Positions 839-26,279 of a stretch of 64,000 bases of DNA are shown piece after piece. Every line of letters begins with the position of its first letter. Position 1 is the first letter of the stretch. The notes beneath the pieces were generated by a model. It did no database searches. It saw only the letters and a program-made list of their open reading frames with translations, and was not told the DNA's origin. The DNA comes from Mangrovibacterium diazotrophicum (GTDB lineage: Bacteria > Bacteroidota > Bacteroidia > Bacteroidales > Prolixibacteraceae), in contig NZ_RAPN01000001.1 in assembly GCF_003610535.1 (NCBI RefSeq), positions 979,320 to 1,043,319 of the forward strand, written 5' to 3'. A program made the position numbers and the translations under genes.

Positions 839-1069
839 ATGACGTTTAGATACCAAGAATATAATACGGGAGACCTTCATGAACAACTTCGGATTTATGA
901 AAACCCGACCATGGCAGATTCCGGCAACGGAGTTTCTGCATTCAGTTGCGGCAATTTGAAACTGGTGTCGATTCCGAAGATTGGCCAACAGATTTTGAAG
1001 CTGTTCGACCAAATCTTTCAAAACAAAAATGACCGTTTTTTACAATTATTAGCCCATACATACTTGTAG
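839..1069 (+). pseudogene. Remnant of a DUF6597-type AraC regulator (internal deletion)
   Basis: This 76-codon frame looks like the two ends of an AraC gene with the middle lost. Its start, MTFRYQEYNTG...IYENP, resembles the start of the intact regulator at 25397 (MELNYEEHKPAG...MYENR). Its end, NKNDRFLQLLAHTYL, matches that protein's end, NKDGRFLQLLTQQQN, with the stop codon at the same place. The upstream region is also conserved. About 175 residues, including the helix-turn-helix, are missing, so it cannot bind DNA as an AraC protein. It lies just before module A, as the intact regulator lies before module B. The N-terminal similarity alone is weak; the C-terminal and promoter matches carry the call. 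Confidence 0.6.
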
Positions 1070-1074
1070 TTTTA
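1031..1074 (+). promoter_or_regulatory. Promoter-like element of module A (18-bp motif + N18 + -7 box)
   Basis: GACCGTTTTTTACAATTA (1031-1048) is followed after 18 nt by TAGTTTTA (1067-1074), one base off the Bacteroidota -7 consensus TAnnTTTG. The same arrangement occurs at 26236-26279 before module B and at the 3' end of the AraC gene (26114-26157). It lies about 130-170 bp upstream of the 812-aa protein gene. Here it overlaps the last codons and stop of the AraC remnant, so coding ancestry could also explain the conservation. Confidence 0.5.
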
Positions 1075-1200
1075 GTGCGCAAACCGAATCAGGCCATTGA
1101 AAAGCAATCACTTTTTTCGGGTTCACCAAACCAGAAAAAACCAAACCAGAATTGATCAGCCTTAACACCTGTTCTATTAAAAAAACTCAGTAAAAACTCT

Positions 1201-3639
1201 ATGAAAACGGGATCTTCCATTACGAAAGGTTTAGTCTTCTTATTCTCGCTTTTAATATCTGCCAATATTGCTTTTGCACAGGAAGTTCAAAAGCTCAATG
1301 TTACATACACGCCAAGCGAAAACGGCTATGAACTTCAGATTCCTTTCGCCTGGGAGTTCATCAATTGTTACGGAGAGATTCATGTCACTATCACGAAAAA
1401 CACGAAAAGCATCACCTCCAGCGCGTATATCAGCGATGGTGTGCGCTACACAGCTGCCGATTTAGGTGCCGAAGCGTTTAGCAAACCGGAGTGCGGTTAT
1501 ACTGACCTGAGTGCCGACGTGTATTGCGGCGCATACAAACTGGGTCGAATAAAAATGACCAACGTGATTGACTGGTTGGGTGGTTGTTTTGGGCAAACCT
1601 ACTATGTAACCGAAATGCTTGGGGTGAAAGATGCTGACTACCGCGACCGTCTGGCAGAGCTATCGCTGAGTAACCTGAGAATCGAGCAGCTATCGAGCGA
1701 TAGCCCCGACATCGAAGGAAAGATCAAAGAAATAGAGAAGAAAAAAGCGGTTTCCTCGAAATTGGCCGATGCCGACCGCGCCTTTTCCGGCGGCAACTAC
1801 GAGGAGGCCCAAAGCCTTTACCAGGAAGCCCTGAAGATTGACAGTTCGAACGCCCACGCCCGCGAAAGGCTGGCTGAAACCAAAGAAAAGCTGAAGGCGC
1901 AGCAATTGGACAATGAATACAAAAACCAGCTGAAAGCCGGTGAGGATCTGGAAAAAAAAGGCGACTACGAAGGTGCTAAAAGTGCCTATCTGAAAGCGCT
2001 TCAGGCAAAGCCGGGCGACGAAGCAGCCCAAAAGAAGCTGGCGCAAATACAGGAAAAACTGAACAAGGAGGAAGCAGCACGGGAAACGAATGCGGCTGCC
2101 AAATCCGCAGCAGCCGACCGAAAACACAGCGGCAGCATGTGGGGCCAAAACTATAACTCCGATTCATACGGTTCGGCAACGCAGGCCGCCAACCTGATTG
2201 GCAATTTCAGAGTCGACTACAGCCTTTCGACTGCAGGCGGCGAACCGGTTCACCAATTTCGGTTTTACTGGGAATGGGACAATGCGCTGAATACAGGTTA
2301 CCCGCAGTGGGTATCGGTGCTGAGCGATACGGTGGTCATGATTCGGGACATTCAGAAATACCCGGACTTATTCGATCGCTGGAACCATATCAAACCCTTG
2401 TACATCGAGGTTGAAAGCAAAATCCTTTACTACAAAAACGAGGGGCAATACGTTGCACAGGCGGGCAAAATTCACATTGTTCCGGAAGTGATCGGCTACT
2501 CGGGACAGGAAGTTGACTGGTCGCTGCCCGGCAGTTGTGCCTGGGACGAGCTTTTTCCCTATTGCAATGATTTGAAATGGGACTACTTTCGAAAGATTGG
2601 CTTGTATGAGGAGATTCATGCTTACCAGGAAAAATTCGGTACCGACATCGCCTGGCCCAAATATACCTTCGAATACAGCGACGATATCAATTTCTACCAG
2701 GGCCATAAATGGTTCGACAGTCAATTTAAACAGCTGAACAGATCGGATTACGAGAACTACAGCACTTCCGCCGATATTGTGAAAGTGATTTGGCCGGTCG
2801 AAGATATCCAAGCAATTATCCGCGATTTCGAGGAGCGCGAGAAAAGAGCCAAAGAGGCTAAAATGACTTCAGATGATTTTTGGAGCACGCCTGAAAGCGA
2901 AAAGAAAACAGAACAGAGCGACTTCTGGGACACCCCTGAAAATGCCACAACCAAAAGCGATGTAGCAGCAAAGCGACAAAGACAGCAGGAAGACCAAATT
3001 CTGTCAAACTGGGCTGGAATTATACAGCAGCAACGGGAAAAGTACGAAGGGCTGAAAAAGCCAATCGCCGTGCTTAGCTCCAAGACGGTTGCAACCCCCA
3101 ACTACAAGCTGAAAGGGAAAATTTCAAAATCATTCAAAAACAAAATCGTCAGAATAAGCGGAGAAAAAATAGAAACGACTTATGCGTCCATAAAAGATGA
3201 CGGTTCCTTCGATAGCGACCTAAAATTAAAAACCGGCGCGAACAAATTGACGCTTGATCTGCTCGAAACCGAAAAGTCGATCAACGCGCTGAAATCACAA
3301 GCTTTGGATGTCACCTTCACCCCTAGTCTGGATGGAGAAGGTGTTGTTTCCAAACGAGAAACAAAAATTACGGTTTACGATGAGAACAGTGTACAGGACG
3401 ACTATTACGATTTGTACATCAACGGTGAATTTGTCGACTACATTCACAATTCACCTGGTGGCAAAACCACCGTCAATTACACGCTGGACGAAGGCGACAA
3501 CTACATTGAACTGAGATTAAGCCGGGAGATGGGGAAAAGCACCGCGCTGGTCATCATTATAAACGATGGCGAGTTTAAAAAAGCTTTTTCCGGCACACAC
3601 GACCACAGATACATCATTTCAGCCCCATACAGTGAATAA
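1201..3639 (+). CDS. Secreted TPR-containing protein of unknown function (module A)
   Basis: The protein has 812 residues. It starts with a clear signal peptide (MKTGSSITKGLVFLFSLL... cleaved near ANIAFAQ), so it is exported. Residues ~190-290 form at least two TPR-like helical hairpins (AFSGGNYEEAQSLYQEALKI and EKKGDYEGAKSAYLKALQA). A basic, Lys/Ala-rich linker follows. Around residues 555-590 two near-copies of a DFW(S/D)TPE motif occur in a charged linker. The C-terminal ~190 residues look beta-rich and resemble a carbohydrate-binding or Ig-like fold (KLKGKISKSFKNKIVRISGE), but no family is recognised. It is 18 bp upstream of the gene at 3658 and probably cotranscribed. A role in an envelope assembly is inference only. 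Confidence 0.75.
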   Translation: MKTGSSITKGLVFLFSLLISANIAFAQEVQKLNVTYTPSENGYELQIPFAWEFINCYGEIHVTITKNTKSITSSAYISDGVRYTAADLGAEAFSKPECGYTDLSADVYCGAYKLGRIKMTNVIDWLGGCFGQTYYVTEMLGVKDADYRDRLAELSLSNLRIEQLSSDSPDIEGKIKEIEKKKAVSSKLADADRAFSGGNYEEAQSLYQEALKIDSSNAHARERLAETKEKLKAQQLDNEYKNQLKAGEDLEKKGDYEGAKSAYLKALQAKPGDEAAQKKLAQIQEKLNKEEAARETNAAAKSAAADRKHSGSMWGQNYNSDSYGSATQAANLIGNFRVDYSLSTAGGEPVHQFRFYWEWDNALNTGYPQWVSVLSDTVVMIRDIQKYPDLFDRWNHIKPLYIEVESKILYYKNEGQYVAQAGKIHIVPEVIGYSGQEVDWSLPGSCAWDELFPYCNDLKWDYFRKIGLYEEIHAYQEKFGTDIAWPKYTFEYSDDINFYQGHKWFDSQFKQLNRSDYENYSTSADIVKVIWPVEDIQAIIRDFEEREKRAKEAKMTSDDFWSTPESEKKTEQSDFWDTPENATTKSDVAAKRQRQQEDQILSNWAGIIQQQREKYEGLKKPIAVLSSKTVATPNYKLKGKISKSFKNKIVRISGEKIETTYASIKDDGSFDSDLKLKTGANKLTLDLLETEKSINALKSQALDVTFTPSLDGEGVVSKRETKITVYDENSVQDDYYDLYINGEFVDYIHNSPGGKTTVNYTLDEGDNYIELRLSREMGKSTALVIIINDGEFKKAFSGTHDHRYIISAPYSE

Positions 3640-3657
3640 AACCTCAAAAGAACAAAT

Positions 3658-5040
3658 ATGAAAATGCAAAGAATTGTCATCCTGCTGATTGCTCTTTTCA
3701 CAGGAGTCAGCTCTTACGCCCAATCATCGGCGAATGAGCAGAAAGCCTTTCAAAACTTCAAGCAGGCGCGCGAGGCCTACGATCAAGGAAACTACGAAAC
3801 AGCGGCCGATCTTTTGTTGCAAACAAAAGAGTTGTTGGGAAGTACCAATATCCGCATCCAGCCCATGCTGATTAAGTCGCTGGTGAAAATTGAAAACTGG
3901 CAACAAGCCAAGATCGAAATTCCGGCTTATTTCGCCTTGAATCCCGACCCGGAACTGGTGGAATACCAGGAAATAAAAAGTCTTCAATCCACGGTATTGT
4001 CGGAAGCCCAAAAGGAAGACAATGCCTGGGCGCTGGCTGTGGATCGTCATAATACCGAAAAATACAAAGCATACCTCGAAACTTATCCATATGGCGCCCA
4101 CCGTGCCGACGCAGAAAAAAGTATTCAGGATATCAATAGCCAACTGGACAATGCAGCCTATCAAAAAGCAATTTCCGATGGCAGCCAACAGGCTCTCAGT
4201 TTCTATTTAAGCAATTATCCGGATGGAAGTCACCGGGATGAAGTAAGTCGAAGACTGTCGGAACGCAAAGAAAACGACCTTTATCAGAAGGCAAAAAACA
4301 ACAATTACGTCGAAAACTACGAAGATTACATTCGTCAGTATCCGAACGGGAAATATGCATCGGAGGCCAAACAGATTATTGAAAACAGTTATTTCAAAAT
4401 CGCAGAAGAGGCTTATGCCGAAAAGGATTATTACCAGGCCCGTAACTTTTACCGGAAGTACCAGGAGAACTATCCGAATGGCGCCAACAGCAAAATCGTA
4501 GCATCCAAGCTAAAGAAGACAGAGAGTAAATTGAATCAGAAAGGTGCTCGTTTTCTGCTCTACACCTACGATACCGAGAGTCCGATTGGAATCAGCACCA
4601 TTCGTTTAAATGTAAATAAACTGGGCTTTTACTACAACCTGAAAATGAATTCGGACATCTTCAAATTCTCCAGCGTGAGCTATGATGTGGACGACAACGG
4701 CGAAAGCGATCGTCCGGGCGATATTAAAATGACCGGAGAAAAGTTATATGCCAACGTTGCCCTCTCGATAGGTGCGACCTTCAAACTGGCTTACCCATTG
4801 TATGGCTATCTGGGTGCTGGTTTTGGCTATTACCCCGTTTACGAGGAAGCCAAAGTTTATTACAGCAGCAGCGGCGACTACTGGGAAAACGACTGGCTAA
4901 AAAACACCGATCAGACAGAATCTGTTTTCTTCCCCGAAGGTGGTTTATTACTCAACCTGGGCAACAAAATGGTGCTCAAATACGGAGTGATGTATCACGA
5001 GGAAATCGTCCACCAGTTTGGGATTGGAATTAAATTCTAA
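3658..5040 (+). CDS. Secreted TPR-like repeat protein with C-terminal beta-barrel (module A)
   Basis: 460 residues with a signal peptide (MKMQRIVILLIALFTGVSSYAQ). After a TPR-like pair (AREAYDQGNYETAADLLLQ) comes a run of helical repeats, each with the signature Y-x5-YP-x-G: YLETYPYGAH, YLSNYPDGSH, YIRQYPNGKY, YQENYPNGAN (residues ~140-285). From ~residue 295 the sequence becomes amphipathic beta strands and ends in Phe (QFGIGIKF), as in outer membrane barrels. The protein at 27663 is a clear paralogue, sharing the last repeats, YDT(E/N)xPIG and the YG(V/F)MY...QxG(I/V)G ending. The function is not known; location in the outer membrane facing the periplasm is inferred. Confidence 0.8.
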   Translation: MKMQRIVILLIALFTGVSSYAQSSANEQKAFQNFKQAREAYDQGNYETAADLLLQTKELLGSTNIRIQPMLIKSLVKIENWQQAKIEIPAYFALNPDPELVEYQEIKSLQSTVLSEAQKEDNAWALAVDRHNTEKYKAYLETYPYGAHRADAEKSIQDINSQLDNAAYQKAISDGSQQALSFYLSNYPDGSHRDEVSRRLSERKENDLYQKAKNNNYVENYEDYIRQYPNGKYASEAKQIIENSYFKIAEEAYAEKDYYQARNFYRKYQENYPNGANSKIVASKLKKTESKLNQKGARFLLYTYDTESPIGISTIRLNVNKLGFYYNLKMNSDIFKFSSVSYDVDDNGESDRPGDIKMTGEKLYANVALSIGATFKLAYPLYGYLGAGFGYYPVYEEAKVYYSSSGDYWENDWLKNTDQTESVFFPEGGLLLNLGNKMVLKYGVMYHEEIVHQFGIGIKF

Positions 5041-5123
5041 CAAATAAATTTCTCTTTTTCTCTTGTTGAAAAAGCCCACTTGACCGGGGCTTTGTGTACC
5101 AATATCAGTAAACTTCAAAAAAA

Positions 5124-5164
5124 GCCCGGCATTCTCGATTCGATGAGTGCCGGGTCTTTTTTTT
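5124..5164 (+). terminator. Rho-independent terminator after module A
   Basis: The stem CCCGGCA (5125-5131) pairs with TGCCGGG (5148-5154), with an inner CTC/GAG pairing in the loop, followed by a TCTTTTTTTT run. It ends the two-gene module A transcript 85 bp after the stop codon. Confidence 0.85.
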
Positions 5165-5419
5165 AGATGTTTTTGAATCGGTGGCAATCGATGAAGCGAA
5201 CTGCCGGGAAGACGGCAAGCCTTCAGCCTGTGCTGATTGCTAAAAGAAGTAAACAAAGTACCGGTTTGAATTTCCTTCTAAGTTTTCGGATTAAAAAGTC
5301 TGAAAACTACGATAATGAGAACAGAAATTGTATCTTGTTTAAGAATAGCAAAATTGATTAACTGTGCCCGTTATTATAGCTCAATCAATGATCCTTTCCT
5401 CATTAAATTCATTTAGAAG

Positions 5420-7432
5420 ATGAAAAAGCTGTTTTTCCCTTTCGCTGCGGCGCTAATTCTGGCCGCCTGCACAACACATCCAGAAAAGAAACTGATTGAA
5501 ATCACCGGTGTCGATAATTCTCTGCGTCCCGGAGACGATTTCTTTAAATATGTCAACGGTACCTGGTACGATTCGGTTCCCATACCCGAGACGCAGGCTG
5601 GCGTTGGCGCCTATATGTTCATGAATTATCCGCAGCGCTTACGCTTGCAGGCAATTTTGGATAGTGTTGCGCAGGGAAACTACCCGGAGGGGAGCCTGGA
5701 GCAGAAAGTAGGCGACTTCTATGCTTCGGGGATGGATACCGCCACGATTGAGCAGCGTGGTTACGAGCCATTGAAACCGATATTGAATGCGATTGATGCG
5801 ATTGCCGATCTGCCGTCCTTAATGAGTTTTGTTGCCGATGCTTCAAAAACGGGCAATGGCTCGTTAATGGGGGTGTACATCGGTCCCGATGATAAAAACA
5901 GTAGCATGAACATCGCTCATGCTTATCAAACGGGAATTGGCTTGCCCGATCGTGATTATTACTTCAAGAAAGACCCCGCAACTATCGGAATCCAGGAAGC
6001 TTATAAAGAATACCTGGCCAGCCTATTTCAACTCACAGGAACTTCGGCGGAAGAAGCGCAGAAAAATGCGGCTTTGGTGTACGAAATCGACAAGCAACTG
6101 GCAGCTTCGCACCGGACACGGGTTGAACTGCGGGATGTGAAAGCCAATTACAATAAAATGGCGGTGTCTGCACTACAGGCTGGTCAACCCAATATTGGCT
6201 GGTCAGCGTACCTTAGTCTGCTGGGAGCTCAAACTGATTCCATTGATGTGGGGCAACCGGCATACTACGAGAAGCTAAACGGGCTTTTGAAAAGTATCCC
6301 CGTCGCTGACTGGAAAATATATTTGAAAGCTAATTCGCTGACCAACTATGCTGACGACCTCAGCAAGGCATTTGTAGACGCCTCTTTTGCATTTACAAAA
6401 GTTATTTCGGGCCAGGCAAAGCCCAAAACACGCGGCGAAAAAATGGCCAGCGCTGTTGACCATTACCTGGGTGAAGCTCTGGGTCAATTGTATGTGAAAG
6501 AATATTTCCCCGAAAGTGCCAAAGAACGGATGCTCGATTTGGTGAATAATGTGCAAACGGCTTATGCCGCCCGAATCGATAAGTTGGACTGGATGAGCGA
6601 CAGCACCAAGCAAAAAGCCAAAGAAAAATTGTTCGCCATCACGAAGAAGATTGGATATCCGGACAAGTGGAAAGATTACAGCGCCGTGAAGGTGGGACGC
6701 GATACCTATTTCGAGAACGTGGTGTCGGCTGCAACGGCCAACTACGAACGCGGACTGGCCAAATTGGGTAAGTCGGTCGATAAAAGCGAATGGTATACAA
6801 CTCCGTCAACCGTGACTGCTTACAATAATCCTTCGGCGAACGAGATTGTTTTTCCGGCAGGTATTTTACAAGCTCCGTATTTTGATAATGAAGCTGACGA
6901 TGCCTTGAATTATGGCGGTATCGGGATGGTGATTGGTCACGAATTGACGCACACTTTTGACGACCAGGGCGCACAGTTCGATAAAAACGGCAATGTTAGC
7001 AACTGGTGGACAGACGAGGACTACAACAAGTTTAAATCCCGGATACAACAGGTTATTGATTTGTACAGCACTTTTACGGTCTTGGACTCCCTGCACATAA
7101 ACGGAGCGATGACTGTTGGTGAAAACACAGCTGATATTGCAGGTGTTGCCGTTGCTTATGATGCCTTTAAAATGACACCGGAAGGGCAAGACACGGCTAA
7201 AGTGGGAAACTTCACGCCCGATCAGCGTTTCTTCCTGTCGATTGCGCGAATCTGGCGGGTAAAGATGAAAGACGAATACCAGCGTTTGTGGATCCGGAGT
7301 AACCCGCACTCATTGCCAATTTGGCGCGTCAACGGACCGTTGATGAACACCACGCCTTTTTATGCGGCATTTGATGTGCAGCCGGGCGATAAAATGTTTC
7401 AGCCCGAAGAAAATCGCATCACGATCTGGTAG
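5420..7432 (+). CDS. M13 family (neprilysin/PepO-like) zinc metallopeptidase, lipoprotein
   Basis: 670 residues, the usual length for bacterial M13 endopeptidases. The N-terminus MKKLFFPFAAALILAAC is a lipoprotein signal with lipobox LAAC, so the enzyme is anchored at the envelope. The N-terminal M13 domain starts at about residue 36 (DNSLRPGDDFFKYVNGTW). The zinc site is H507-E-L-T-H511 with the third ligand in E568-NTAD572, both intact. The substrate-binding region NPSANEIVFPAGIL and the closing FQPEENRITIW (family ending (C/R)-x-(V/I)-W) are present. It should cleave peptides in the periplasm or at the cell surface. It appears monocistronic, without a close neighbour on the same strand. 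Confidence 0.95.
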   Translation: MKKLFFPFAAALILAACTTHPEKKLIEITGVDNSLRPGDDFFKYVNGTWYDSVPIPETQAGVGAYMFMNYPQRLRLQAILDSVAQGNYPEGSLEQKVGDFYASGMDTATIEQRGYEPLKPILNAIDAIADLPSLMSFVADASKTGNGSLMGVYIGPDDKNSSMNIAHAYQTGIGLPDRDYYFKKDPATIGIQEAYKEYLASLFQLTGTSAEEAQKNAALVYEIDKQLAASHRTRVELRDVKANYNKMAVSALQAGQPNIGWSAYLSLLGAQTDSIDVGQPAYYEKLNGLLKSIPVADWKIYLKANSLTNYADDLSKAFVDASFAFTKVISGQAKPKTRGEKMASAVDHYLGEALGQLYVKEYFPESAKERMLDLVNNVQTAYAARIDKLDWMSDSTKQKAKEKLFAITKKIGYPDKWKDYSAVKVGRDTYFENVVSAATANYERGLAKLGKSVDKSEWYTTPSTVTAYNNPSANEIVFPAGILQAPYFDNEADDALNYGGIGMVIGHELTHTFDDQGAQFDKNGNVSNWWTDEDYNKFKSRIQQVIDLYSTFTVLDSLHINGAMTVGENTADIAGVAVAYDAFKMTPEGQDTAKVGNFTPDQRFFLSIARIWRVKMKDEYQRLWIRSNPHSLPIWRVNGPLMNTTPFYAAFDVQPGDKMFQPEENRITIW

Positions 7433-7644
7433 TTGTAACTACCCGGGAATGGCTTCTTTTTATAACGGCAGAACTATTGTTGCATCTGTTTGCAGAAGCC
7501 TCGAGGGTGCCGTATAATTGGAAAATTATGCCTGATTTCTTCGCGCGTCGAATAGCTTTTCGATGCAGGTGCACGGGGCAACCGATGTAACCAACGACTA
7601 GCTTTTTCGGTAAGTCCTGGTAAAACCAAGCGTCAAAAAAAACG

Positions 7645-8832
7645 ATGTCATTTCAAATCAACAGACTATTCCATTTGCTCGTCTTCCTGTTTTTTCTCGA
7701 TGCCTGTCAATCTTCGTCGAGCGGCCAATACGTCTACTCGCCTCCTGCTGCTACTGAAGCAGATCTTCCGGTTGCCTCGTTAACCGATGTCAACATGGAT
7801 ATTTCGCCAATTGAAAAGGCAGTTGAGCGAATTGAAAAAGGCAAATATGGCGAAGTGCATTCGTTGCTGATTTCTAAAAACGGGAAACTGGTGCTGGAGG
7901 GATATTTCAACGGACACGATTACCAGTGGGATGCGCCTGATCATTACGGAGAACTGGTGCAATGGACACCCGGGCGGACGCACTTTGTGCATTCGGTCAG
8001 CAAGAGTATCATTTCACTTTGCATTGGCATTGCGATCGACAAAGGCTTTATTCGCGATGTGCAGCAATCTGTTTTCGACTACATGCCCGAATACGAATAC
8101 CTCAACACGGGAGACAAGCATTACATCAACATCGAGCACTTGCTCTCCTGCACCGGCGGACTGCAATGGGCCGAGTGGAATGCTCCGCTCAGCAGCCGCG
8201 AGAACGACCAGGTGAACATCTGGTTCCACCCCAAAGGGCCGATTGACTATTACCTGCAACGCCCCTTTGTGGCGGTTCCCGGAACGCTCTTTAACTACAG
8301 TGGCGGAGGTATCGAAGTGTTGGGCAAGATTTTGGAAAATGCCAGCGGCATGAGTGTTCAGGCATTCTCGGACGAATACCTGTTCGGCCCACTGGGCTTG
8401 AAAGAAGCCGAGTGGAACATTATCTACCCAACCGGCGAGTACCATGTGGCTGCCGGATTGAAACTTCGCCCGCGCGACATGTTAAAAATAGGGATGATGA
8501 TGCTTCAAAATGGGAAGTGGAACGATCAGCAAATCGTTTCTCCGGAATGGATTTCCAAAAGCAGCACGTCTTTTCTGCCCGATATGTCCATCAATGTTCC
8601 CGGCGAGGATCTTCGCGACATGGGCTACGGCTACACCTGGTGGACCAAAGATGAAACCAACAACGGGCAAGCAGTACATTGGTTCTCGGCCAACGGCTGG
8701 GGTGGTCAGAAAATCGTCGTGCTGCCCGAGTTCGAAACGGTGATCGTTCTTACGGGCGCCAATTACACGAGCAAAGTCAAGGAATACCGCATTATTAGCG
8801 ACTACCTGTACAAGGCGATTCGGGCGGATTAG
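7645..8832 (+). CDS. Serine hydrolase of the beta-lactamase/class C penicillin-binding family, lipoprotein
   Basis: 395 residues with a lipoprotein signal ending in LDAC. The catalytic SxxK is S117-V-S-K120 in VHSVSKSIISL. The tyrosine motif appears as FNYSGGG rather than the canonical YxN, and the distal motif region is SANGWGGQK. The family includes esterases, D-aminopeptidases and 6-aminohexanoate-dimer hydrolases; nothing here selects a substrate, and antibiotic hydrolysis is not implied. Two further serine hydrolases of this superfamily are in the window (21585 and 32559), only distantly alike. The following isomerase starts 60 bp downstream on the same strand and could be cotranscribed. 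Confidence 0.88.
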   Translation: MSFQINRLFHLLVFLFFLDACQSSSSGQYVYSPPAATEADLPVASLTDVNMDISPIEKAVERIEKGKYGEVHSLLISKNGKLVLEGYFNGHDYQWDAPDHYGELVQWTPGRTHFVHSVSKSIISLCIGIAIDKGFIRDVQQSVFDYMPEYEYLNTGDKHYINIEHLLSCTGGLQWAEWNAPLSSRENDQVNIWFHPKGPIDYYLQRPFVAVPGTLFNYSGGGIEVLGKILENASGMSVQAFSDEYLFGPLGLKEAEWNIIYPTGEYHVAAGLKLRPRDMLKIGMMMLQNGKWNDQQIVSPEWISKSSTSFLPDMSINVPGEDLRDMGYGYTWWTKDETNNGQAVHWFSANGWGGQKIVVLPEFETVIVLTGANYTSKVKEYRIISDYLYKAIRAD

Positions 8833-8891
8833 CCCCAATTACCGGCAACAATTAAACTGCTTCGGTGTTAGAGCTTCATAAAAACAGACAA

Positions 8892-9707: not shown

Positions 9708-9741
9708 GCAGCTCCCCGATTCAGTCGTCCGGGAAGCTGCT
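9707..9741. terminator. Hairpin between convergent genes, probable bidirectional terminator
   Basis: AGCAGCT (9707-9713) pairs with AGCTGCT (9735-9741), extended inward by CCC/GGG with one mismatch. It lies between the ends of the isomerase (+) and the flavoprotein (-) genes. No long T run is present. Confidence 0.55.
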
Positions 9742-9755
9742 ACGTCTGGTGAGGT

Positions 9756-16263: not shown

Positions 16264-16281
16264 AATGCATCCTTGCTGAAT

Positions 16282-16407: not shown

Positions 16408-16430
16408 ATTACAAAAAAACATCCAACACT

Positions 16431-17927: not shown

Positions 17928-17939
17928 TATGCTATTAAC

Positions 17940-18039
17940 TGTAGCTAACAAAAGGTAATATAACACCAACCTCAGTTTCTGTCGGACACTCAGACTCTCG
18001 TCTGACCGCCACTACATGATACCACCACTGTTAGGTGTG
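17940..18039. repeat. attC-like recombination site between two accessory genes
   Basis: A 100-bp structured region. It starts with TGTAGCTAAC (17940-17949, R''-like) and ends with GTTAGGTGTG (18030-18039, R'-like). Inside are GGTA (17954-17957) / TACC (18020-18023), as expected for L''/L', and a central hairpin TCAGAC-TCTC-GTCTGA (17990-18005). Length and order fit integron attC sites. The two ends do not match each other but each matches the far side of its own gene, as expected for cassettes in a row. Confidence 0.5.
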
Positions 18040-18201
18040 ATTTGACGTACTTCAAGATTACAAAAAAAAGATTAGAATTTTTAATCTTCCAGAGCTGTTT
18101 AAATCATGTTGATTACAATAAAATTCTAGCACTTTTGAAAAGAATAAGCTATGAATAATTCGATTAAATAAATGAAGTTAAGAGAGTAAAAAAAAACGCC
18201 T

Positions 18202-18951: not shown

Positions 18952-18953
18952 CA
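18943..18953 (+). repeat. Right inverted repeat of the DUF2971 gene (attC R''-like)
   Basis: CACACCTAACA is the reverse complement of TGTTAGGTGTG at 18029-18039. The core ACCTAAC fits the integron R'' consensus RYYYAAC exactly, and the partner core GTTAGGT fits GTTRRRY exactly. The gene's stop codon is inside it. Confidence 0.6.
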
Positions 18954-19353
18954 AAGAACTGAGCTAAAAACAACTAAAAGGCCTATAATTTTCCCATTAA
19001 AATCATCTTCTTTTGGTGCTGGTCCCCTGCTAGCGCAGATCTGTAATCCGAGCTTTATTTAGGACAAATAAAGAAAAACCGAATAAGTCGTTCCCAGTAA
19101 GCTTTACAAAAGTGTACCAGCGGCGGGGTCACCCTCTATCCCTAAAAAATTGAATTTTTTCACACACGTAGTTATCAAAACAAAATTTTATAACTATTTT
19201 CAAACGGCAGCTTAAGAGACCGCAATCCAAACCAGAAAAATAAAAATATTTGAGGTTTTTAGACAGACTGCCGTCATGGGCAAGTAAATCGAAACGACTT
19301 TCAAACGATAGAACCAGAATTAAGCAAATAACATTAAACTCAACTAATTTTAG
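18954..19353. other. 400-bp AT-rich gap with a REP-like hairpin
   Basis: No gene is seen. An imperfect hairpin AGCGCAGAT-CTGTA-ATCCGAGCT (19032-19054, two mismatches) resembles short dispersed hairpins common in Bacteroidota intergenic DNA. It shares AGCGCAGATC with the terminator at 35490. A clear closing R' half-site (GTTRRRY) for the DUF2971 cassette was not found here, so this boundary may be decayed. Confidence 0.4.
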
Positions 19354-19995
19354 ATGCCAATATTTACCATTATTCTAATAGCAACCATTTCTGGACTAAC
19401 AATATATGGATTTAATAATTCAGATTTCTATGAAAAATATTCATTCAACGTTGGTGCAATAAAGAACGAAAAGGAATATTATAGGATAATCACCTCCGCA
19501 TTCATCCATGTAGATTATACTCATCTTGTTTTTAATATGGTTTCCTTATATACTTTTGCGGAATTTGTTGAAATAGAATACACTTCAAAAGTTATTTTTC
19601 TTTCATTCTTATTAAGTGTAATAGGAGGAGGAGTATACAGTTTAATTAATAATTGGAAAAACGATAATTACTCGGCAGTTGGTGCTTCAGGTGGAGTTTG
19701 TGGAATTATTTATTCCTCCATATTTCTCATGGAAACTGGTAGTGTATATATCATGTTTATACCCATTCCTATTCCCGACTACGTATATGCTGCTTTATTT
19801 ATTTGGGGTTCTTACTATTTAATGAAAAAAGGAACTGACAATATTGGTCATGATGCCCATATCGGGGGTGCTATTACAGGAATTATCTATGCCATTTCTG
19901 TTATTCCCTGGGTTTTCTTGCAAGAGTTTCGTATTATATTGATTATGTTTTTACCTTTTGCCGTTTTATACATACATGAAAGGTATTTTATGTGA
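19354..19995 (+). CDS. Rhomboid family intramembrane serine protease
   Basis: 213 residues with about six hydrophobic helices. The catalytic serine lies in G110-A-S112-G113 and the catalytic histidine is H169 in HDAHIGGAITGI, giving the Ser-His dyad. The early ITSAFIHVDYTHLVFNMVSLYTF matches the conserved loop-1/helix-2 region (the H-x3-N motif is present as HLVFN). It cleaves transmembrane substrates within the membrane; the target is unknown. It is AT-rich like its neighbours and sits in the accessory segment. Confidence 0.9.
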   Translation: MPIFTIILIATISGLTIYGFNNSDFYEKYSFNVGAIKNEKEYYRIITSAFIHVDYTHLVFNMVSLYTFAEFVEIEYTSKVIFLSFLLSVIGGGVYSLINNWKNDNYSAVGASGGVCGIIYSSIFLMETGSVYIMFIPIPIPDYVYAALFIWGSYYLMKKGTDNIGHDAHIGGAITGIIYAISVIPWVFLQEFRIILIMFLPFAVLYIHERYFM

Positions 19996-19997
19996 CA

Positions 19998-20055
19998 CCG
20001 CTCCCGCGCGAATCCTTTCGCGTGGTAACAATCACCACACGATACAATCGTTTAA
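19998..20055. repeat. Run of small hairpins between the rhomboid and DHFR-like genes
   Basis: Consecutive inverted repeats CGCGAA...TTCGCG (about 20007-20022), TGGT-N7-ACCA and CGAT-ACA-ATCG are packed into about 60 bp, followed by TTTAAC. ACGATACAA (20039-20047) is repeated inverted as TTGTATCGT (20662-20670) beyond the DHFR-like gene. This fits a structured cassette boundary, but the half-sites do not match the attC consensus well. Confidence 0.4.
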
Positions 20056-20103
20056 CAGCGAGGAGCATCCAGAAAGACAAATCTGAAAACAAAAAAATAA
20101 ATC

Positions 20104-20640
20104 ATGGAAAATCGGAAACTTATACTTTACATTTCCTGCTCTTTAGACGGATACATCGCGAAACCTAACGATGATTTGAGTTTTTTAAGTCAAGTGCAAA
20201 AAGAAGGGGAAGATTATGGGTATCACGATTTCGTATCGACTATAGACACAGTGATTCTTGGCAGAAAAACCTATGATTGGGTAATGACACAAGTTGACGA
20301 ATTTCCACACGCTGATAAAGAAACATATGTAATCACCCGAACTGAAAGACCTCGAAAAGGGAAAACAATATTTTACACGGGAGAATTAAAAGGATTGATA
20401 ATCGGACTTAAAAAAAGGCAGGGCAAGAATATCTTTTGTGATGGCGGTGCAGAAATTGTAAATGAACTTCTAACTGAGAAACTGTTTGACGAATTGATTA
20501 TTTCAGTGGTTCCCGTATTGGTTGGCAATGGAACAAGGTTGTTTAAAGACGGAAGACCCGAACAAACACTTAAACTTATTTCAGTAAACGGTTTTGACAC
20601 AGGACTGGTGCAACTTCATTATAAAATGACTGAAAAATAA
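20104..20640 (+). CDS. Dihydrofolate reductase-like (RibD C-terminal fold) protein
   Basis: 178 residues. The start RKLILYISCSLDGYIAKPN and the middle TVILGRKTYDW, KNIFCDGGAEIVNELL and LIISVVPVLVGNGTRLF are characteristic of the YyaP/YwjB-like branch of the DHFR/RibD reductase superfamily. NADPH-dependent reduction is expected, but these small proteins are usually not the essential folate enzyme. The gene is flanked by a 9-bp inverted repeat and followed by a complex palindromic region, consistent with accessory cassette status. Confidence 0.88.
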   Translation: MENRKLILYISCSLDGYIAKPNDDLSFLSQVQKEGEDYGYHDFVSTIDTVILGRKTYDWVMTQVDEFPHADKETYVITRTERPRKGKTIFYTGELKGLIIGLKKRQGKNIFCDGGAEIVNELLTEKLFDELIISVVPVLVGNGTRLFKDGRPEQTLKLISVNGFDTGLVQLHYKMTEK

Positions 20641-20895
20641 AAAGCTCGAAAGCACAACACCTTGTATCGTTAATGGCAGGCGATGTGGCAAACAGCAAGG
20701 TTTGTAGCCCGCTCAAACTGCGTAGCGGTTTGATTATGGAATAGAAACCTGTGCCAACAATAGCAATAAAAGCATGGCGAACGCAGTGGTTTTCGCGCGC
20801 CGGCACACCAAGCAAGATACACCAACCGTTGTATACCCTGTAAGGAATCAATCCCCTGCTCCAGACAACCGAGTGAAAGAACCAACTAATTAGCC
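20641..20895. other. Palindrome-rich intergenic region after the DHFR-like gene
   Basis: About 255 bp with no gene. It includes TTGTATCGT (20662-20670), the inverted partner of 20039-20047, and a near-perfect hairpin CAAACTGCGTAGCGGTTTG around 20713-20731. It ends with CCGTTGTATACCC (about 20826-20838) ahead of the zinc-ribbon gene. The structure suggests a recombination site or a compound of several, but no consensus could be fixed. Confidence 0.4.
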
Positions 20896-21525
20896 ATGCG
20901 ATTTACACAACCAGCCTATCCAACCGTTTATTTCAGCGACAAAATATGGGTGAAATGTCCCGATTGTGGCGATATTGGTCTTGTTGAAACTGAATTTGGC
21001 CAATACACAATTCCTTATTCGCGCCACCATACATCAACTTTTAGTTGCACAAAATGTGGTTCGACGAAAAAGAGCGATGAAAAATGGTTTGGATACGTTC
21101 AAGGCTTTGTTGGACGAAGTTGTGGCTTTTGTGGAAGTCAGATAAGCTATACGACCGAACCGACCAAAGCACCTTTTGATTCGGTGACAATTAAATGTAA
21201 TTCGTGCAAAAAAGCCAAAGACTATTCATTAAATTGGTACCGATACAAAGAGAACATGCCAACAGATCCTTATTTCGGATTAGAACTTTGGCTGCAGATC
21301 GATATCAAGGATAAAATCTTATGGCTCTACAACATTGACCATTTGAATTATTTGAAGAACTATGTTGCCTCGAAGCTTCGTGAAGACGATGGAAGGCACA
21401 AATACTCAATGATTACAAATCTTCCGCAGTGGATAAAGTCGGCCAAAAACAGGGATTTGATTTTGAAAAAGATTGATCGCCTGAAAAATGAGATGAACAG
21501 AAAAATGGAAGACAACACGAAATAA
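20896..21525 (+). CDS. Zinc-ribbon protein of unknown function
   Basis: 209 residues with four CxxC knuckles: CPDC, CTKC, CGFC and CNSC (residues ~18-115), which pair into two zinc ribbons. The rest (residues ~120-209) is soluble and partly helical, ending in a Lys/Arg-rich segment. No enzyme motif is seen. Proteins of this kind are often DNA- or RNA-associated, but that is only an inference from the ribbons. A hairpin AACCGC/GCGGTT immediately overlaps and follows its stop codon. Confidence 0.65.
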   Translation: MRFTQPAYPTVYFSDKIWVKCPDCGDIGLVETEFGQYTIPYSRHHTSTFSCTKCGSTKKSDEKWFGYVQGFVGRSCGFCGSQISYTTEPTKAPFDSVTIKCNSCKKAKDYSLNWYRYKENMPTDPYFGLELWLQIDIKDKILWLYNIDHLNYLKNYVASKLREDDGRHKYSMITNLPQWIKSAKNRDLILKKIDRLKNEMNRKMEDNTK

Positions 21526-21544
21526 CCGCTTTAAAACGGCGGTT
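21524..21544 (+). terminator. Weak hairpin at the end of the zinc-ribbon gene
   Basis: AACCGC (21524-21529) pairs with GCGGTT (21539-21544) around TTTAAAACG, overlapping the stop codon. There is no T run, so it may be a cassette boundary rather than a terminator. Confidence 0.3.
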
Positions 21545-21584
21545 GATTCGGAACCTTGGACAAGCAAACAAAAACACCCGATTG

Positions 21585-23168
21585 ATGAATAAACGAAACT
21601 CCAAACTAATTCTCGTTCTGATTCTTGTATTTGGACTCGGAACAACCAATTCCTTTTCTCAGGTAACGGCGCCCGAAATTGATGCGATTGTCGAACACGC
21701 CATGGATAACTTTACCGTAGCGGGCGCTGCAGTGGCGGTTGTCAAAGACGGGCAAATCATCTTTGAAAAAGGCTTCGGCTTAAAGTCGATCGACAGCAAG
21801 GAAAAGGTTGACGAGCACACCAACTTTGCCATTGCCTCCAACTCGAAAGCATTCACAACGGCAGCACTGGCCATCCTGGTGGATGAGGGCAAACTGGCCT
21901 GGACTGATCCGGTGATCAAATACATCCCCGAGTTCCGGATGTATGATGACTATGTGACGCAAAACTTCAACATTGAAGACCTACTGACACACCGGAGCGG
22001 CCTTGGTTTGGGAATGGGCGATTTGATGCTTTGGCCTGTTGGTTCAGACTTCAGCGTTGCCGATATCCTGAACGGCTTTCAGTATTTCAAACCGGTTTCG
22101 GCCTTTCGTACCAAGTATGATTACGACAACCTGCTTTATATCGTCACCGGTGAATTGATTGCACGGGTAAGCGGAATGAGCTGGGAGGAATTTATTAAGG
22201 AGAAGATTTTTGCCCCCCTTGGAATGGACAATTCTTACGCATCGGTCACCTACATGAATGATCAGAGCAATTTGGCATCCCCGCATTTGAACAATGGCAA
22301 AGAGCTGTCCCTCATCGAAACCGAGCATTGGGATCCGAAAATGATCAACGGTGCGGCCGGCGGTATTTATGCCAATGTGCACGATTTGGCGAGCTGGATG
22401 CTGGTTCAGCTGAACAAAGGGAAATACGGCCCCCAACAGGAAAAGCAGCTTTTTACTGAAGCCAGTCAGCAGGAAATGTGGAAAATACATACGACAATGA
22501 AGACTGATCCGAATCCGCGATACAATTCACATTTTGCAGGCTATGGTCTGGGATGGCGGCTCAATGATGCGAAAGGCAACCTGATCGTCTCTCACACGGG
22601 AGCATTGGCCGGGATGTTGTCGAAAACGCTTTTGGTGCCGGATTTAAACCTGGGCATCGTTGTGTTAACCAATACCTGGGGCGATGGTGCCGGTTTGTTC
22701 TCGGCAGTGTCTCAAACCGTATTGGACAAGTATTTGGGACTGGATGAATTTGACTGGACGGAAGCCTACGTCAAACGATTGAGCCAAAAAGGAAATGAGG
22801 CCGCCGAGGTTGTTGCCAACGTGTGGGCAACGGTTGAAAAAGCCGATGCATCGAACATCGACTTGAATAACTATTCGGGCGAGTACAAAGACCCCTGGTT
22901 TGGCAACATCGAAATTTATGAGCAGGACAAGCAGCTTTGGTTCCGCTCTGTTCGATCGCCGAAACTTACCGGGCCCATGCATTACTACGGTGCCAATACC
23001 TTTGTGGTAAAATGGCCCGACTCGGAATTAACCGATGCCGACGCTTTTGTGCTGTTTCAACTGGATGAAAACGGGAAAGCACAGGGTTTTAAAATGAAAG
23101 GCATCTCCCCTGCCATCGATTTTAGTTTCGACTTCCAGGATTTGGAGCTTCAACGAATAAATGAATAA
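21585..23168 (+). CDS. Exported serine hydrolase (beta-lactamase-like) with C-terminal DUF3471-like domain
   Basis: 527 residues from ATG 21585, giving the signal peptide MNKRNSKLILVLILVFGLGT...SFSQ. The catalytic SxxK is in IASNSKAFTTAAL, the tyrosine motif is Y-D-N in YDYDNLLY, and the third motif is HTG in SHTGALAG, so all three class C motifs are intact. The final ~100 residues (LNNYSGEYKDPWFGNIEIYE) match the DUF3471-type beta domain often attached to such enzymes. It acts in the periplasm; the substrate is unknown. The next lipoprotein gene starts 38 bp downstream and is likely cotranscribed. Confidence 0.92.
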   Translation: MNKRNSKLILVLILVFGLGTTNSFSQVTAPEIDAIVEHAMDNFTVAGAAVAVVKDGQIIFEKGFGLKSIDSKEKVDEHTNFAIASNSKAFTTAALAILVDEGKLAWTDPVIKYIPEFRMYDDYVTQNFNIEDLLTHRSGLGLGMGDLMLWPVGSDFSVADILNGFQYFKPVSAFRTKYDYDNLLYIVTGELIARVSGMSWEEFIKEKIFAPLGMDNSYASVTYMNDQSNLASPHLNNGKELSLIETEHWDPKMINGAAGGIYANVHDLASWMLVQLNKGKYGPQQEKQLFTEASQQEMWKIHTTMKTDPNPRYNSHFAGYGLGWRLNDAKGNLIVSHTGALAGMLSKTLLVPDLNLGIVVLTNTWGDGAGLFSAVSQTVLDKYLGLDEFDWTEAYVKRLSQKGNEAAEVVANVWATVEKADASNIDLNNYSGEYKDPWFGNIEIYEQDKQLWFRSVRSPKLTGPMHYYGANTFVVKWPDSELTDADAFVLFQLDENGKAQGFKMKGISPAIDFSFDFQDLELQRINE

Positions 23169-23205
23169 AGGCCAATTTATTTTACCATATCTGGTCAAAG
23201 TGCAC

Positions 23206-23922
23206 ATGAAACAAACAACTCAACTTATTGCAATCGCATTGCTCGTTATTCTAACAGCTTGCGGACAGCCGGAAAATGTACATTGGCAGGCCGATCAGCA
23301 AGACTCGGCTTATGGGTTGACACTGGGATACTCGTTACCGGCAACGAAAGTCCAGGAAATTGTTGGCGACCAGTTTAACCCAATAGTCGACAAAAATGGC
23401 AATGCCTTTTTAATGCTCTTTATTGAAACGGCCAAACAATACAAGCTCCAAAACAAGACTTTCGAAAACATGCTACTGGCACATCTTGCTGTTCCTTGCG
23501 AGGAGTCCATCAATTGCCCGTTTACCATTGCTGCGGAAAATCAAAAGATCAGCCAGGTTTATAAGCAATTCAACTTCAGGATTGATGAAGGCGAGGTCGA
23601 TTTTTCGGTTGAAGATCAAGGTGATTCTTTAGTTATTGCGGCACAGATCGCTACTGCAAACGGCAAAATCTCTATTACGGCTAAAGTTCCGAATAATCCA
23701 GGGGAACTTGTAACGATGGCTACCAAAGTGACTGGCTCAACTCCAAACAGTTTTTTTGAAGGAAAAGAATCGTACCGTCCGGTAAAGATATCGTCAGCCA
23801 AAATCAAAACTGAGGGGGAAACCTGGCTATCGCAATTCGACTTAAAACCCGAACCCGATGTCATGTGGTTGAACACCGAATTTAGCTGGGATTTTAGCTT
23901 TAGCGAAGCCGTTGCTGATTAA
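23206..23922 (+). CDS. Lipoprotein of unknown function
   Basis: 238 residues from ATG 23206, chosen because it yields a lipoprotein signal (MKQTTQLIAIALLVILTAC). An upstream in-frame start at 23161 overlaps the preceding stop and buries the signal. The mature part is ~220 residues with alternating strands (YGLTLGYSLPATKVQEIVG, FRIDEGEVDFSVEDQGDSL, LVIAAQIATANGKISITAKV), looking like a beta-sandwich or barrel. No family is recognised. It follows the serine hydrolase closely and may assist it, but this is only positional. Confidence 0.7.
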   Translation: MKQTTQLIAIALLVILTACGQPENVHWQADQQDSAYGLTLGYSLPATKVQEIVGDQFNPIVDKNGNAFLMLFIETAKQYKLQNKTFENMLLAHLAVPCEESINCPFTIAAENQKISQVYKQFNFRIDEGEVDFSVEDQGDSLVIAAQIATANGKISITAKVPNNPGELVTMATKVTGSTPNSFFEGKESYRPVKISSAKIKTEGETWLSQFDLKPEPDVMWLNTEFSWDFSFSEAVAD

Positions 23923-23994
23923 ATCGGCATCAAGATTTGAGATTTCAAAAGTCACATAAAACCAGCTTTACCAGAAGCTCAAAAGGCTTTCTGG

Positions 23995-25122
23995 TTACAC
24001 CTTCTCTAAAAATTGGCTGAAGCTCTCCCCGATACAGTCTTTAAAATTCCGTTCGAACGACCGGACGGAACCGAAACCGGATAGTTCAGCGAGTTCATCT
24101 TTGGTCAATTCCGCTTTGTGTTCGCTGATGTATTCCCTGGCAAAACCAATCCGGTACTCGTTCACAAACCGGTTAAAATTTTTCCCGGCGTACTGGTTAA
24201 TCGCGTTGGATAAATGGGTGCGGTTTGTTCCCAGTTCAATAATCAGGTCATCGATTTTCAACTCGGAATTCAGATACGGTTTCTGCTCGTCAAAATAGTG
24301 ATTCAAATTTTCAAACAGCCTCCTCCCCGGCTCAACCGGCTCTTCAATTCGTACCTTCTCAACAAAGGGCAATTCGGGCAAGGGATGCTGCCGCAAACCC
24401 ACAATGCCGAACAGCCAGATAGCAACCGAAATCACCGCCAGGGGCAAGATTAGCACCAGGTAGTTGCCAAACACCTTCACCGGATTAATGGAGTAAAAAC
24501 CAATCGCCGCAATTGATCCGACAAATAAGACAAAGTTGAGCACTTTGATGCTGTTCAACTGAATGCCCTCGGTATTTGAAAACACATCCTGAATTTCGGA
24601 GCTATATTGCCGTAAAATTGAAATGGTTCTGAACCCGTAGAATAAAATCTGCGCGAAAAGAAGGAGAATATTGATAATCCGGCAAAAGAACATGAAAACC
24701 ATCACCGGCTGGCCCCATTCCGGAGCGAAACGGAAAACCGTGACGAACTGTTCGCGTTCCGATGCATCCAGCATGAGGTAATAAACCAGGCTTTGCAAAG
24801 CAACAATTCCCGCAGGAACCAGGTGAACAATCAGCTGGCGAAAACTCACCGCCGGGTCAATCAGCTGGCGGATGTAGATGTAAATCCCCGGGTAAACCAG
24901 CAGCAACGACACCACATTGATCATCAGTATCCGGGAATAGAATTCGTAGTCGCCACTCAGAAAATAATAGAGTCCCCAAAACAAAAAAGCCAGGTTAGCC
25001 AAAACCATTGCCAATGTTTTTTTGGCGCTATTCCCTTTCTCGGCATTCATAAAAATTGCCATTGCAATAACGAGCGGAATATACACCGGACTGAAAAGTA
25101 AGAACAAAACCCAGCTAGCCAT
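23995..25122 (-). CDS. Membrane-embedded AraC-family transcriptional regulator
   Basis: 375 residues from the ATG at 25122, which is preceded by a good ribosome-binding site (AGGAG a few bases upstream); longer in-frame starts lack this. Residues 1-~230 contain about seven transmembrane helices (LFLLFSPVYIPLVIAMAIF and following). The C-terminus carries the two helix-turn-helix units of AraC (LIIELGTNRTHLSNAINQYA and ELAELSGFGSVRSFERNFK). The family likely senses a signal in or across the membrane and acts on DNA directly. It is divergent from the soluble AraC gene at 25397, with ~275 bp of shared regulatory DNA. Confidence 0.9.
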   Translation of the reverse strand: MASWVLFLLFSPVYIPLVIAMAIFMNAEKGNSAKKTLAMVLANLAFLFWGLYYFLSGDYEFYSRILMINVVSLLLVYPGIYIYIRQLIDPAVSFRQLIVHLVPAGIVALQSLVYYLMLDASEREQFVTVFRFAPEWGQPVMVFMFFCRIINILLLFAQILFYGFRTISILRQYSSEIQDVFSNTEGIQLNSIKVLNFVLFVGSIAAIGFYSINPVKVFGNYLVLILPLAVISVAIWLFGIVGLRQHPLPELPFVEKVRIEEPVEPGRRLFENLNHYFDEQKPYLNSELKIDDLIIELGTNRTHLSNAINQYAGKNFNRFVNEYRIGFAREYISEHKAELTKDELAELSGFGSVRSFERNFKDCIGESFSQFLEKV

Positions 25123-25247
25123 TTCTCTCCTGTTTTCGACCCTTAAATGTAGAAAACTTTTGCCTTTGTCGAGATCATTTCGCTGTTTAGCTAACATACA
25201 ATTAAATAATCGTTTAATAAGCCGACATTCGTACGGTGTACTATTTG

Positions 25248-25264
25248 TCGTAAGCTATTTACGA
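25248..25264. promoter_or_regulatory. Inverted repeat between divergent AraC genes, candidate operator
   Basis: TCGTAA-GCTAT-TTACGA is a 6-bp inverted repeat with a 5-nt spacer. It lies about 130 bp from each start codon in the divergent region, beside a GTACGGTGTAC sequence. Similar GTGTAC repeats stand upstream of the AraC remnant in module A. Confidence 0.4.
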
Positions 25265-25396
25265 TTTGTCAACCGGAAATTGCGCTTATTTCCATCTTTT
25301 GTAACGGTAACTATACGCACGAACGAGCTTGGTTCGGAATGAATCTGATCAGTACTGATTAGACGTATTTTTTATTTTAATGAAAGAGAACTTATC

Positions 25397-26152
25397 ATGG
25401 AGCTTAATTACGAGGAACACAAGCCGGCCGGATTTATCAGCCAGTTTGTACAATGCTTCTGGATGTATGAGAATAGAAGCGAAACAACAAAACACACGAT
25501 TTTACCGCATGGCTATTTCGAAATCGTAGCCGAGTTTAGCAACGGGAAGATCGGCAAGATTACGCAATCCGGCATTTGGACGCAGCCGGTAAACGTCGTT
25601 ATTCCCCGAGGCTCGCTCATTCTGGGAATCCGATTCAAATTAACAGCTACAGAGTATATCTTTCAACATCCCATCAGCGATATTCGGGATCAACTGACTT
25701 CTCTTCCCTTCGACTTTTGGGGATTCGACCAATACGGTAATGCAGATTTCACCAACTTCGTAAAACAGGTTTCGAAACATTTGCTGAAACAATTGAGAAA
25801 CTTCCCGCTTCAGGCCATCGATCAGCGCAAGCTGAAACTGTTCAAACTGATCTATCTAAACAAGTTTGAATCGGTAGAGCAGCTGGCTGTTCAAATCGGT
25901 TGGAGCAGGCGGCAGATTAACCGTTACTTTAACCAACAATTTGGTTTCCCACTGAAAGAATACCTGAAAATCATTCGCTGTTCTTCGGCTTACAAATACA
26001 TCTCGAAAGGGGAATTGTTTCCACCTGTTAATTACTTCGACCAGTCTCACTTTATCAAGGATATTAAACACTACACCGGCAAAACACCACGGCAACTCTA
26101 TCATAACAAAGACGGCCGTTTTTTACAATTACTGACACAGCAGCAGAACTAG
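25397..26152 (+). CDS. AraC-family regulator with DUF6597-type N-terminal domain (module B)
   Basis: 251 residues. The N-terminal ~110 residues (FISQFVQCFWMYENR... ILPHGYFEIVAEF... IPRGSLILGIRF) match the DUF6597-like sensor domain. Residues ~155-245 form the helix-turn-helix pair (VEQLAVQIGWSRRQINRYF and YFDQSHFIKDIKHYTGKTP). The tail NKDGRFLQLLTQQQN is encoded by an 18-bp DNA element that recurs elsewhere in the window. A decayed copy sits at 839-1069. As the gene precedes module B with the same orientation, it probably controls those genes and perhaps module A. Confidence 0.92.
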   Translation: MELNYEEHKPAGFISQFVQCFWMYENRSETTKHTILPHGYFEIVAEFSNGKIGKITQSGIWTQPVNVVIPRGSLILGIRFKLTATEYIFQHPISDIRDQLTSLPFDFWGFDQYGNADFTNFVKQVSKHLLKQLRNFPLQAIDQRKLKLFKLIYLNKFESVEQLAVQIGWSRRQINRYFNQQFGFPLKEYLKIIRCSSAYKYISKGELFPPVNYFDQSHFIKDIKHYTGKTPRQLYHNKDGRFLQLLTQQQN

Positions 26153-26157
26153 CTTTC
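26114..26157 (+). promoter_or_regulatory. Copy of the 18-bp element overlapping the AraC 3' end
   Basis: GGCCGTTTTTTACAATTA (26114-26131) encodes the regulator's RFLQL tail. After exactly 18 nt comes TAGCTTTC (26150-26157), whose first three bases are the stop codon and which matches TAnnTTTG in 7 of 8 positions. Whether it acts as a promoter here is unknown; the second, non-coding copy 122 bp further on is the better candidate. Confidence 0.35.
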
Positions 26158-26235
26158 TGTCCTGTGTGGGATGTCCACCGGGCTCGTTTTCACGAAACCT
26201 GCGCCATACGACGGTAACGCTATCGTAACAATAAC

Positions 26236-26279
26236 GACCGTTTTTTACAATTACAAAAAACTCCGCGCGCGTACTTTTG
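26236..26279 (+). promoter_or_regulatory. Probable promoter of module B (18-bp motif + N18 + TACTTTTG)
   Basis: GACCGTTTTTTACAATTA (26236-26253), 18 nt, then TACTTTTG (26272-26279), a perfect Bacteroidota -7 box. The motif takes the place of the usual TTTG -33 box. The start codon of the first structural gene is 109 bp after the -7 box. The motif is non-coding here, unlike the copy inside the AraC gene. Confidence 0.6.

Follow-up and report, generated by a model that had tools for sequence, protein, structure and literature searches.

A candidate promoter linked to DUF6597/AraC-type regulator genes of Bacteroidota, present in three copies in Mangrovibacterium diazotrophicum

A stretch of 64,000 nucleotides (nt) of the Mangrovibacterium diazotrophicum genome (contig NZ_RAPN01000001.1, positions 979,320 to 1,043,319; hereafter the window) contains three copies of an 18-base-pair (bp) sequence, at 1031-1048, 26114-26131 and 26236-26253. 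Copy 2 lies in the last codons of an AraC-type regulator gene that begins at 25397, and copies 1 and 3 lie ahead of two partly paralogous gene modules, A and B. An earlier note on this DNA reported these copies, together with a box related to the Bacteroidota -7 consensus exactly 18 nt beyond each, and raised the question of whether they are a dedicated promoter or operator for the modules, or a duplicated 3' end of the AraC gene that was recruited as a promoter. The copies and the boxes are confirmed at the positions reported. The promoter side of the question is strongly supported by features that recur across Bacteroidota, namely the spacing, the box and a start codon shortly downstream. 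The two options are not true alternatives, however, since the 3' end of the gene appears in one regulator clade to be itself the promoter, and its duplication duplicates the promoter. Judged from sequence alone, it is very probable that the 18-bp element and its box form a promoter linked to the DUF6597/AraC regulator, which would bind the operator and activate the next gene.

Spacing and composition of the element across Bacteroidota

The element consists of an operator-like sequence, GWCSSnTTTnTMCAAT, a fixed gap, and a -7 box, TAnnTTTG. We count the gap as the nucleotides between the end of the 16-nt operator (...CAAT) and the box, which makes it 20 nt; the figure of 18 nt is counted from the 18-mer. 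The Bacteroidota sigma-A -7 box is placed at -12 to -5 in PMC9723704, and the operator is therefore predicted to lie at about -48 to -33, with transcription starts in the window as given in Table 1.

DNA searches were done with the gap left free between 10 and 30 nt. Among 393 genomes at the level of the order, all five matches have a gap of 20, window copy 3 being one of them, and the reversed control gave one match. A scan at the species level, covering 84,980 species by a single genome each, gave at least 118 stretches, 80 of which were examined. The gap is 20 in 76 of these 80 loci, and 73 of the 76 are from Bacteroidota (the exceptions are L082, L091 and L108); the four loci with another gap are three from other phyla and one from Robiginitalea. 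A homologue of the AraC gene adjoins 71 of the 80 sites, and in all 71 the gap is 20 and the box opens with TAA or TAG, the search pattern having allowed any base. Intergenic boxes that start with TA read TAT or TAC in 11 of 26 cases. At nine of the examined loci the site is without an AraC homologue; among them, L066, L100 and L102 (other phyla, other spacings), L077 (spacing 23) and L082 were set aside as chance matches, while L070, L099 and L118 may be standalone promoters. L108 (6300-6343) is from the gammaproteobacterium Pasteurella atlantica and holds the regulator, the putative promoter and a gene that is glyoxalase-like by eye, all in the Bacteroidota form, an arrangement that possibly arrived by horizontal transfer.

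A second set of loci was chosen by protein. Of 247 genomes from the phylum, 73 have DUF6597, with 132 matches in total, and 90 of these genes were taken (the 95 best-scoring, minus the window's own and four others, passed over or close to a contig end); the frames of L190, L194 and L195 are short or broken, leaving 87 usable. With an operator of at least 8/10 and a box of at least 5/6, a gap of 20 was found in 40 of the 90 genes, 21 in five, 19 in two, and any other gap in no more than two, compared with 0.2-0.7 per gap in shuffled sequences and at most three on the reverse strand. In both sets the recurrent spacing of 20 holds the operator at a position overlapping the -33/-35 region. When the operator is scored alone, a match of at least 13/14 falls between -60 and +130 relative to the stop codon in 45 of the 87 genes, and 12 further matches at this level lie elsewhere, several of them with a box at the same spacing, where a first-order control expects 1.8 in total. 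Five DUF6597 genes without a site at the stop codon (L173, L174, L176, L177 and L192) have an operator at another place in the locus, followed at the usual gap by a TA-type box.

The element stands shortly ahead of a gene. With the downstream open reading frame chosen heuristically, such a frame is present within 260 nt at 116 of 123 sites, and its start codon lies 15-40 nt past the box in 99 of the 116 (median 25.5 nt). These promoter features recur in Bacteroidota even where the element is untranslated. The next gene is of the Glyoxalase family in 16 of 45 and 19 of 69 cases, and of FAD_binding_3 in 5 of 45 and 35 of 69; other families include DUF6265 (5/45) and RibD_C (4/45). The idea that the element is a dedicated promoter for secreted-protein modules is not supported, as the gene that follows the element in relatives is most commonly a glyoxalase-like or FAD enzyme. 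Secreted proteins are not the rule, and the enrichment upstream of secreted-protein genes that the earlier note expected therefore fails as stated, while the promoter reading itself holds. The FAD monooxygenases that follow the box at L232, L051 and L239 match the Tet(X) model with 243-486 bits, below its cut-off of 750, and by this match are relatives of the Tet(X) enzyme family.

A TTTG element is described near -33 in Bacteroides fragilis promoters in PMC7366714. No such element was seen at this position in 32 intergenic operators, which show ACAAT followed by weak T-rich columns; four T columns that were not scored have T in 31-32 of the 32 sites. A second, upstream half-site was considered and rejected, as the columns there are nearly flat in the 32 intergenic sites, and a two-site AraC mode is therefore unsupported. 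The most likely mechanism is that the DUF6597/AraC protein would bind a single site adjoining RNA polymerase, with the sigma-A -7 box 20 nt past the operator, and would activate the next gene. An alternative, which we think unlikely, is that the promoter is real and that a different regulator binds the operator, or that the DUF6597 protein represses; repression could also work from a position that overlaps the -33 region, but the site is linked to DUF6597/AraC genes (near the stop codon in 45/87, and beside the homologue at 71/80 of the DNA-found sites), and an operator with no TTTG at the -33 position would suit activation.

Coding and untranslated forms of the operator

In the clade of the window regulator the operator is translated as a C-terminal tail, D-R-F-I/L-Q, and the gene takes its stop codon from the TA(A/G) of the -7 box. 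This holds for all six homologues found in relatives (30-49% identical), in which the element lies in the last codons and TAnnTTTG follows 18 nt on. In a set of 33 homologues that includes the window regulator, scored with the gap fixed at 20, all have the operator and the box at the end of the gene or close to it, three of them in weaker forms: the operator is at exactly -36 in 28, at -42 in one, and at or after the stop in three (the weakest with an operator of 11/14 and a box of 5/6), and the window has the coding copy (13/14, box 5/6) plus the better copy 3. The box is 6/6 in 26 of the 28 homologues with the operator at -36. In most DUF6597 genes with a site, the operator is untranslated and starts usually 1-36 nt, and up to 121 nt, past the stop.

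The two forms are separated in a tree of 112 proteins, from which the last 14 residues were excluded and for which the bootstrap had not settled. All 28 coding-form rows are in one clade of 31, with support 100/99; the clade is completed by the window row and by two rows whose operator is at the stop or beyond it, and in the two neighbouring groups the operator follows the stop in most rows. The simplest story would be that a single extension carried the reading frame into the promoter, where it came to end at the -7 box. Among DNA-found sites in which a frame stays open for 100 codons or more up to the operator, the box is the stop in 63 of 66. At L050, L081 and L108 the stop comes 3-6 nt earlier and the box is unmoved, and at L263 the stop comes later and the box position is again kept. 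At L061 (4147-4190) a stop lies directly before the codons for N-D-R-F-L-Q, which are kept untranslated with the exact spacing and box, and this locus is apparently an intermediate between the coding and the after-stop forms.

Codon choice in the tail was compared with that in the bodies of the same genes for the 16 strict-form tails of the 33 homologues, related genes being counted as independent. The tails use GAC for Asp in 14 of 14 cases (30% in bodies), CGA for Arg in 14 of 16 (8%), TTA for Leu in 7 of 7 (23%), CAA for Gln in 16 of 16 (55%) and TTT for Phe in 16 of 16 (70%). The direction of the skew agrees with the untranslated operators, and the pattern shows that the tail is under a constraint at the DNA level besides coding. 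It could be argued that D-R-F-I/L-Q is a conserved C-terminal protein motif at a fixed tail length, the window copies being mere AraC tails or relics, and indeed the closest homologues of the window AraC have the same tail, and copies 1-3 share an origin. We consider this most improbable: sister clades hold the same operator and spacing untranslated, after the stop; in L061 the tail codons follow a stop; the tail differs sharply from the gene body in its codons; the residues that separate it from the stop are highly variable; and the tail is outside the HTH_18 match, which spans residues 163-234. Pure protein constraint was rejected together with pure shared ancestry on the untranslated operators, the codon skew, the diverged spacers and L061. 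One stretch of DNA appears to serve as both protein code and control site in many relatives; in the coding clade the operator would be read as D-R-F-I/L-Q and the TAA or TAG of the -7 box would end the gene.

L070 (7193-7236, Bacteroidales) has a coding-type tail, D-R-F-I-Q, with the exact spacing and a TAG box, and the next gene is glyoxalase-like by eye. No AraC homologue was found in this 8-kb locus, which apparently retains a promoter that outlived its regulator.

The regulator, the three copies and modules A and B

The product of the gene at 25397 matches PF20240 (1.8e-14, 54.1 bits; cut-off 27) and PF12833 (1.4e-11, 45 bits; cut-off 33.6), so that both domains of the AraC/XylS DUF6597-HTH_18 architecture are over the Pfam cut-offs, and it is the only DUF6597 match in the genome at E <= 1e-6. 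No other sequence in the window is within 3 mismatches of the 18-mer (100 shuffles: mean 0.36, maximum 2), and in a whole-genome search the three window copies are the best matches to the element plus box. The 18-mer alone is without wider enrichment in the genome, because it has 24 matches with up to 3 mismatches versus 27 for the reversed control. A wider regulon was rejected, as the extras are only three weak ones with 2 mismatches (C1:2929229, C1:2929538 and C4:160936) and one with 3 (C3:259692). The first two (2929229-2929272 and 2929538-2929581, minus strand) are a near-identical operator-like pair 309 nt apart, with a box that does not have the TA, and are probably an unrelated repeat.

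Table 1. Features of the window discussed in the text.
Feature	Coordinates	Strand	Remarks
Open frame upstream of module A	839..1069	+	76 amino acids; 14 residues near the end (1010-1051) resemble the AraC tail; without Pfam match
Operator copy 1 (16 nt)	1031..1046	+	Full match; proposed module A operator
-7 box of copy 1, TAGTTTTA	1067..1074	+	5/6; predicted transcription start near 1079
First two module A genes	1201..5040	+	TPR protein of 812 amino acids; YfiO/TPR-like protein of 460 amino acids (3658), paralogue of 27663
AraC-type regulator (DUF6597 + HTH_18), proposed activator	25397..26152	+	Pfam; last codons hold copy 2, TAG stop opens the -7 box
Operator copy 2 (16 nt), coding	26114..26129	+	-36 relative to the AraC stop
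-7 box of copy 2, TAGCTTTC	26150..26157	+	5/6 consensus positions; opens with the TAG stop
Degenerate duplicate of the AraC 3' end	26191..26254	+	78% identical to 26069-26132
Operator copy 3 (16 nt)	26236..26251	+	Full match; proposed module B operator
-7 box of copy 3, TACTTTTG	26272..26279	+	6/6; start predicted near 26284 if the box is at -12 to -5
17-codon open frame	26293..26346	+	Starts 13 nt past the box of copy 3; either a leader peptide or what is left of a former target gene
First two module B genes	26388..28532	+	406 amino acids, without family match; 289 amino acids (27663), related to 3658

The earlier note had described two copies as the coding end of an AraC gene or its remnant and the third as non-coding. 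This is borne out for copy 2, which is the AraC 3' end, but copy 3 is not merely non-coding, being the final part of the 64-nt stretch duplicated from that 3' end, 122 nt downstream of copy 2. Copy 1 is identical to the AraC 3' end at 33 of 39 nt, and because copies 3 and 1 both match this end, the three window copies are not independent. Copies 1 and 3 differ at 26 of 45 flanking positions, 0 of 16 in the operator, 13 of 20 in the spacer and 1 of 6 in the box; across the three copies the differences are 13-26/45 in the flank, 0-1/16 in the operator and 12-13/20 in the spacer, a contrast of operator with flank that is in part due to selection, as the shared core prompted the alignment (most of the later tests are free of this). 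That shared ancestry alone explains the spacing, as had been suggested, is unlikely, since the spacer has diverged to this extent while the operator keeps 15-16 of 16 bases; it is also opposed by the spacing being kept where the operator lies 3' of the stop.

Copies 1 and 3 were said to be 130-170 bp upstream of the first structural genes, and the distances are 152 nt from copy 1 to 1201 and 134 nt from copy 3 to 26388. The modules have two paralogous pairs in common, arranged in matching order: 3658-5040 with 27663-28532 (32%, 1.8e-46) and 7645-8832 with 32559-33860 (27%, 1.6e-23). As the only copy with both a perfect operator and a perfect box, copy 3 is the likeliest promoter of module B, and the duplication of the AraC 3' end would have carried this promoter along; copy 1 is, by its alignment, a relic ahead of the partly paralogous module A. 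With a promoter duplicated as copy 3 and a relic ahead of the paralogous module, both modules are probably under the control of the one regulator at 25397, which most likely activates each of them. It is doubtful that copies 1 and 3 are decayed, functionless duplicates and that only the ancestral copy 2 ever worked; the long distances to the genes and the imperfect box of copy 1 would fit such decay, but copy 3 alone combines a perfect operator with a perfect box, and both copies keep 16/16 operator bases while 26/45 flanking bases differ. The start of the 17-codon frame downstream of copy 3 is close to where the target genes of relatives begin after the box.

Several observations weigh against an active, regulator-linked promoter, in the window or more widely. 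The box-to-gene distances of 108 nt (copy 3) and 126 nt (copy 1) are to be set against the median of 25.5 nt in relatives, and correspond to predicted leaders of about 104 nt for module B and about 122 nt for module A, longer than in relatives. A search of 100 family genomes, the window's own included, gave no orthologues for the first genes of the modules (partial TPR matches to the first gene of module A are present in 10 of these 100), and the boxes of copies 1 and 2 are imperfect. Among the DUF6597 genes, 42 of 87 have no 13/14 operator near the stop, these 42 having weaker operator forms, forms elsewhere, or none. Seven of the 123 sites have no open reading frame within 260 nt (L059, L073, L099 and L216 are near the end of the examined stretch; L060, L065 and L246 are not), and the codon and column counts are inflated by the relatedness of the genes. 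With these points taken into account, we still incline towards a broader view, that in a clade of regulators across Bacteroidota the target promoter is translated as the C-terminus, and that this cassette, which may be copied, or left behind on loss of the regulator gene, would rewire new modules to the regulator, as in copies 1 and 3 and at L070.

Relation to known systems

In open-access papers (subscription papers and preprints being outside the scope), no literature was found on 'DUF6597' or on six 14-base forms of the operator, and combined-term searches there gave nothing on this arrangement among the matches listed. The AraC-type regulator and the sigma-A -7 box are of known kinds; the part that would be a variant, not found in the open-access literature, is the overlap of the operator with the last codons and of the -7 box with the stop, at an exact position in several families. 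If correct, the arrangement lets operator, promoter and target be predicted together, from sequence, for a large Bacteroidota regulator family. It would also be a clear example in nature of a sequence constrained both as code and as promoter, with its exact position kept in several families, and would suggest a route for regulon growth, in which duplication of a regulator gene's end duplicates its promoter.

Known activators of the AraC/XylS family include ones with a site that overlaps the -35 region, as with AraC at pBAD and with MarA/SoxS. Similarly, the HTH_18 regulator here is encoded beside its proposed target, and its operator of about 16 bp abuts the polymerase site; unlike in those systems, the site is single, without a conserved second half-site, and lies at the 3' end of the regulator's own gene, within codons in one clade. 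The element shares with Bacteroidota sigma-A promoters the -7 box, and its short distance from box to start codon fits promoters of this kind; it departs from them in that the operator replaces the TTTG -33 element, and in that the TA(A/G) of the box doubles as the stop codon of the upstream gene in one clade. Promoters inside upstream genes, and DNA with dual coding and regulatory use, are known kinds, and the element resembles them in having a regulatory signal within codons. It differs from them in that the exact position relative to the stop is kept across several families of the phylum, and in that the signal sits in the gene of its probable cognate regulator.

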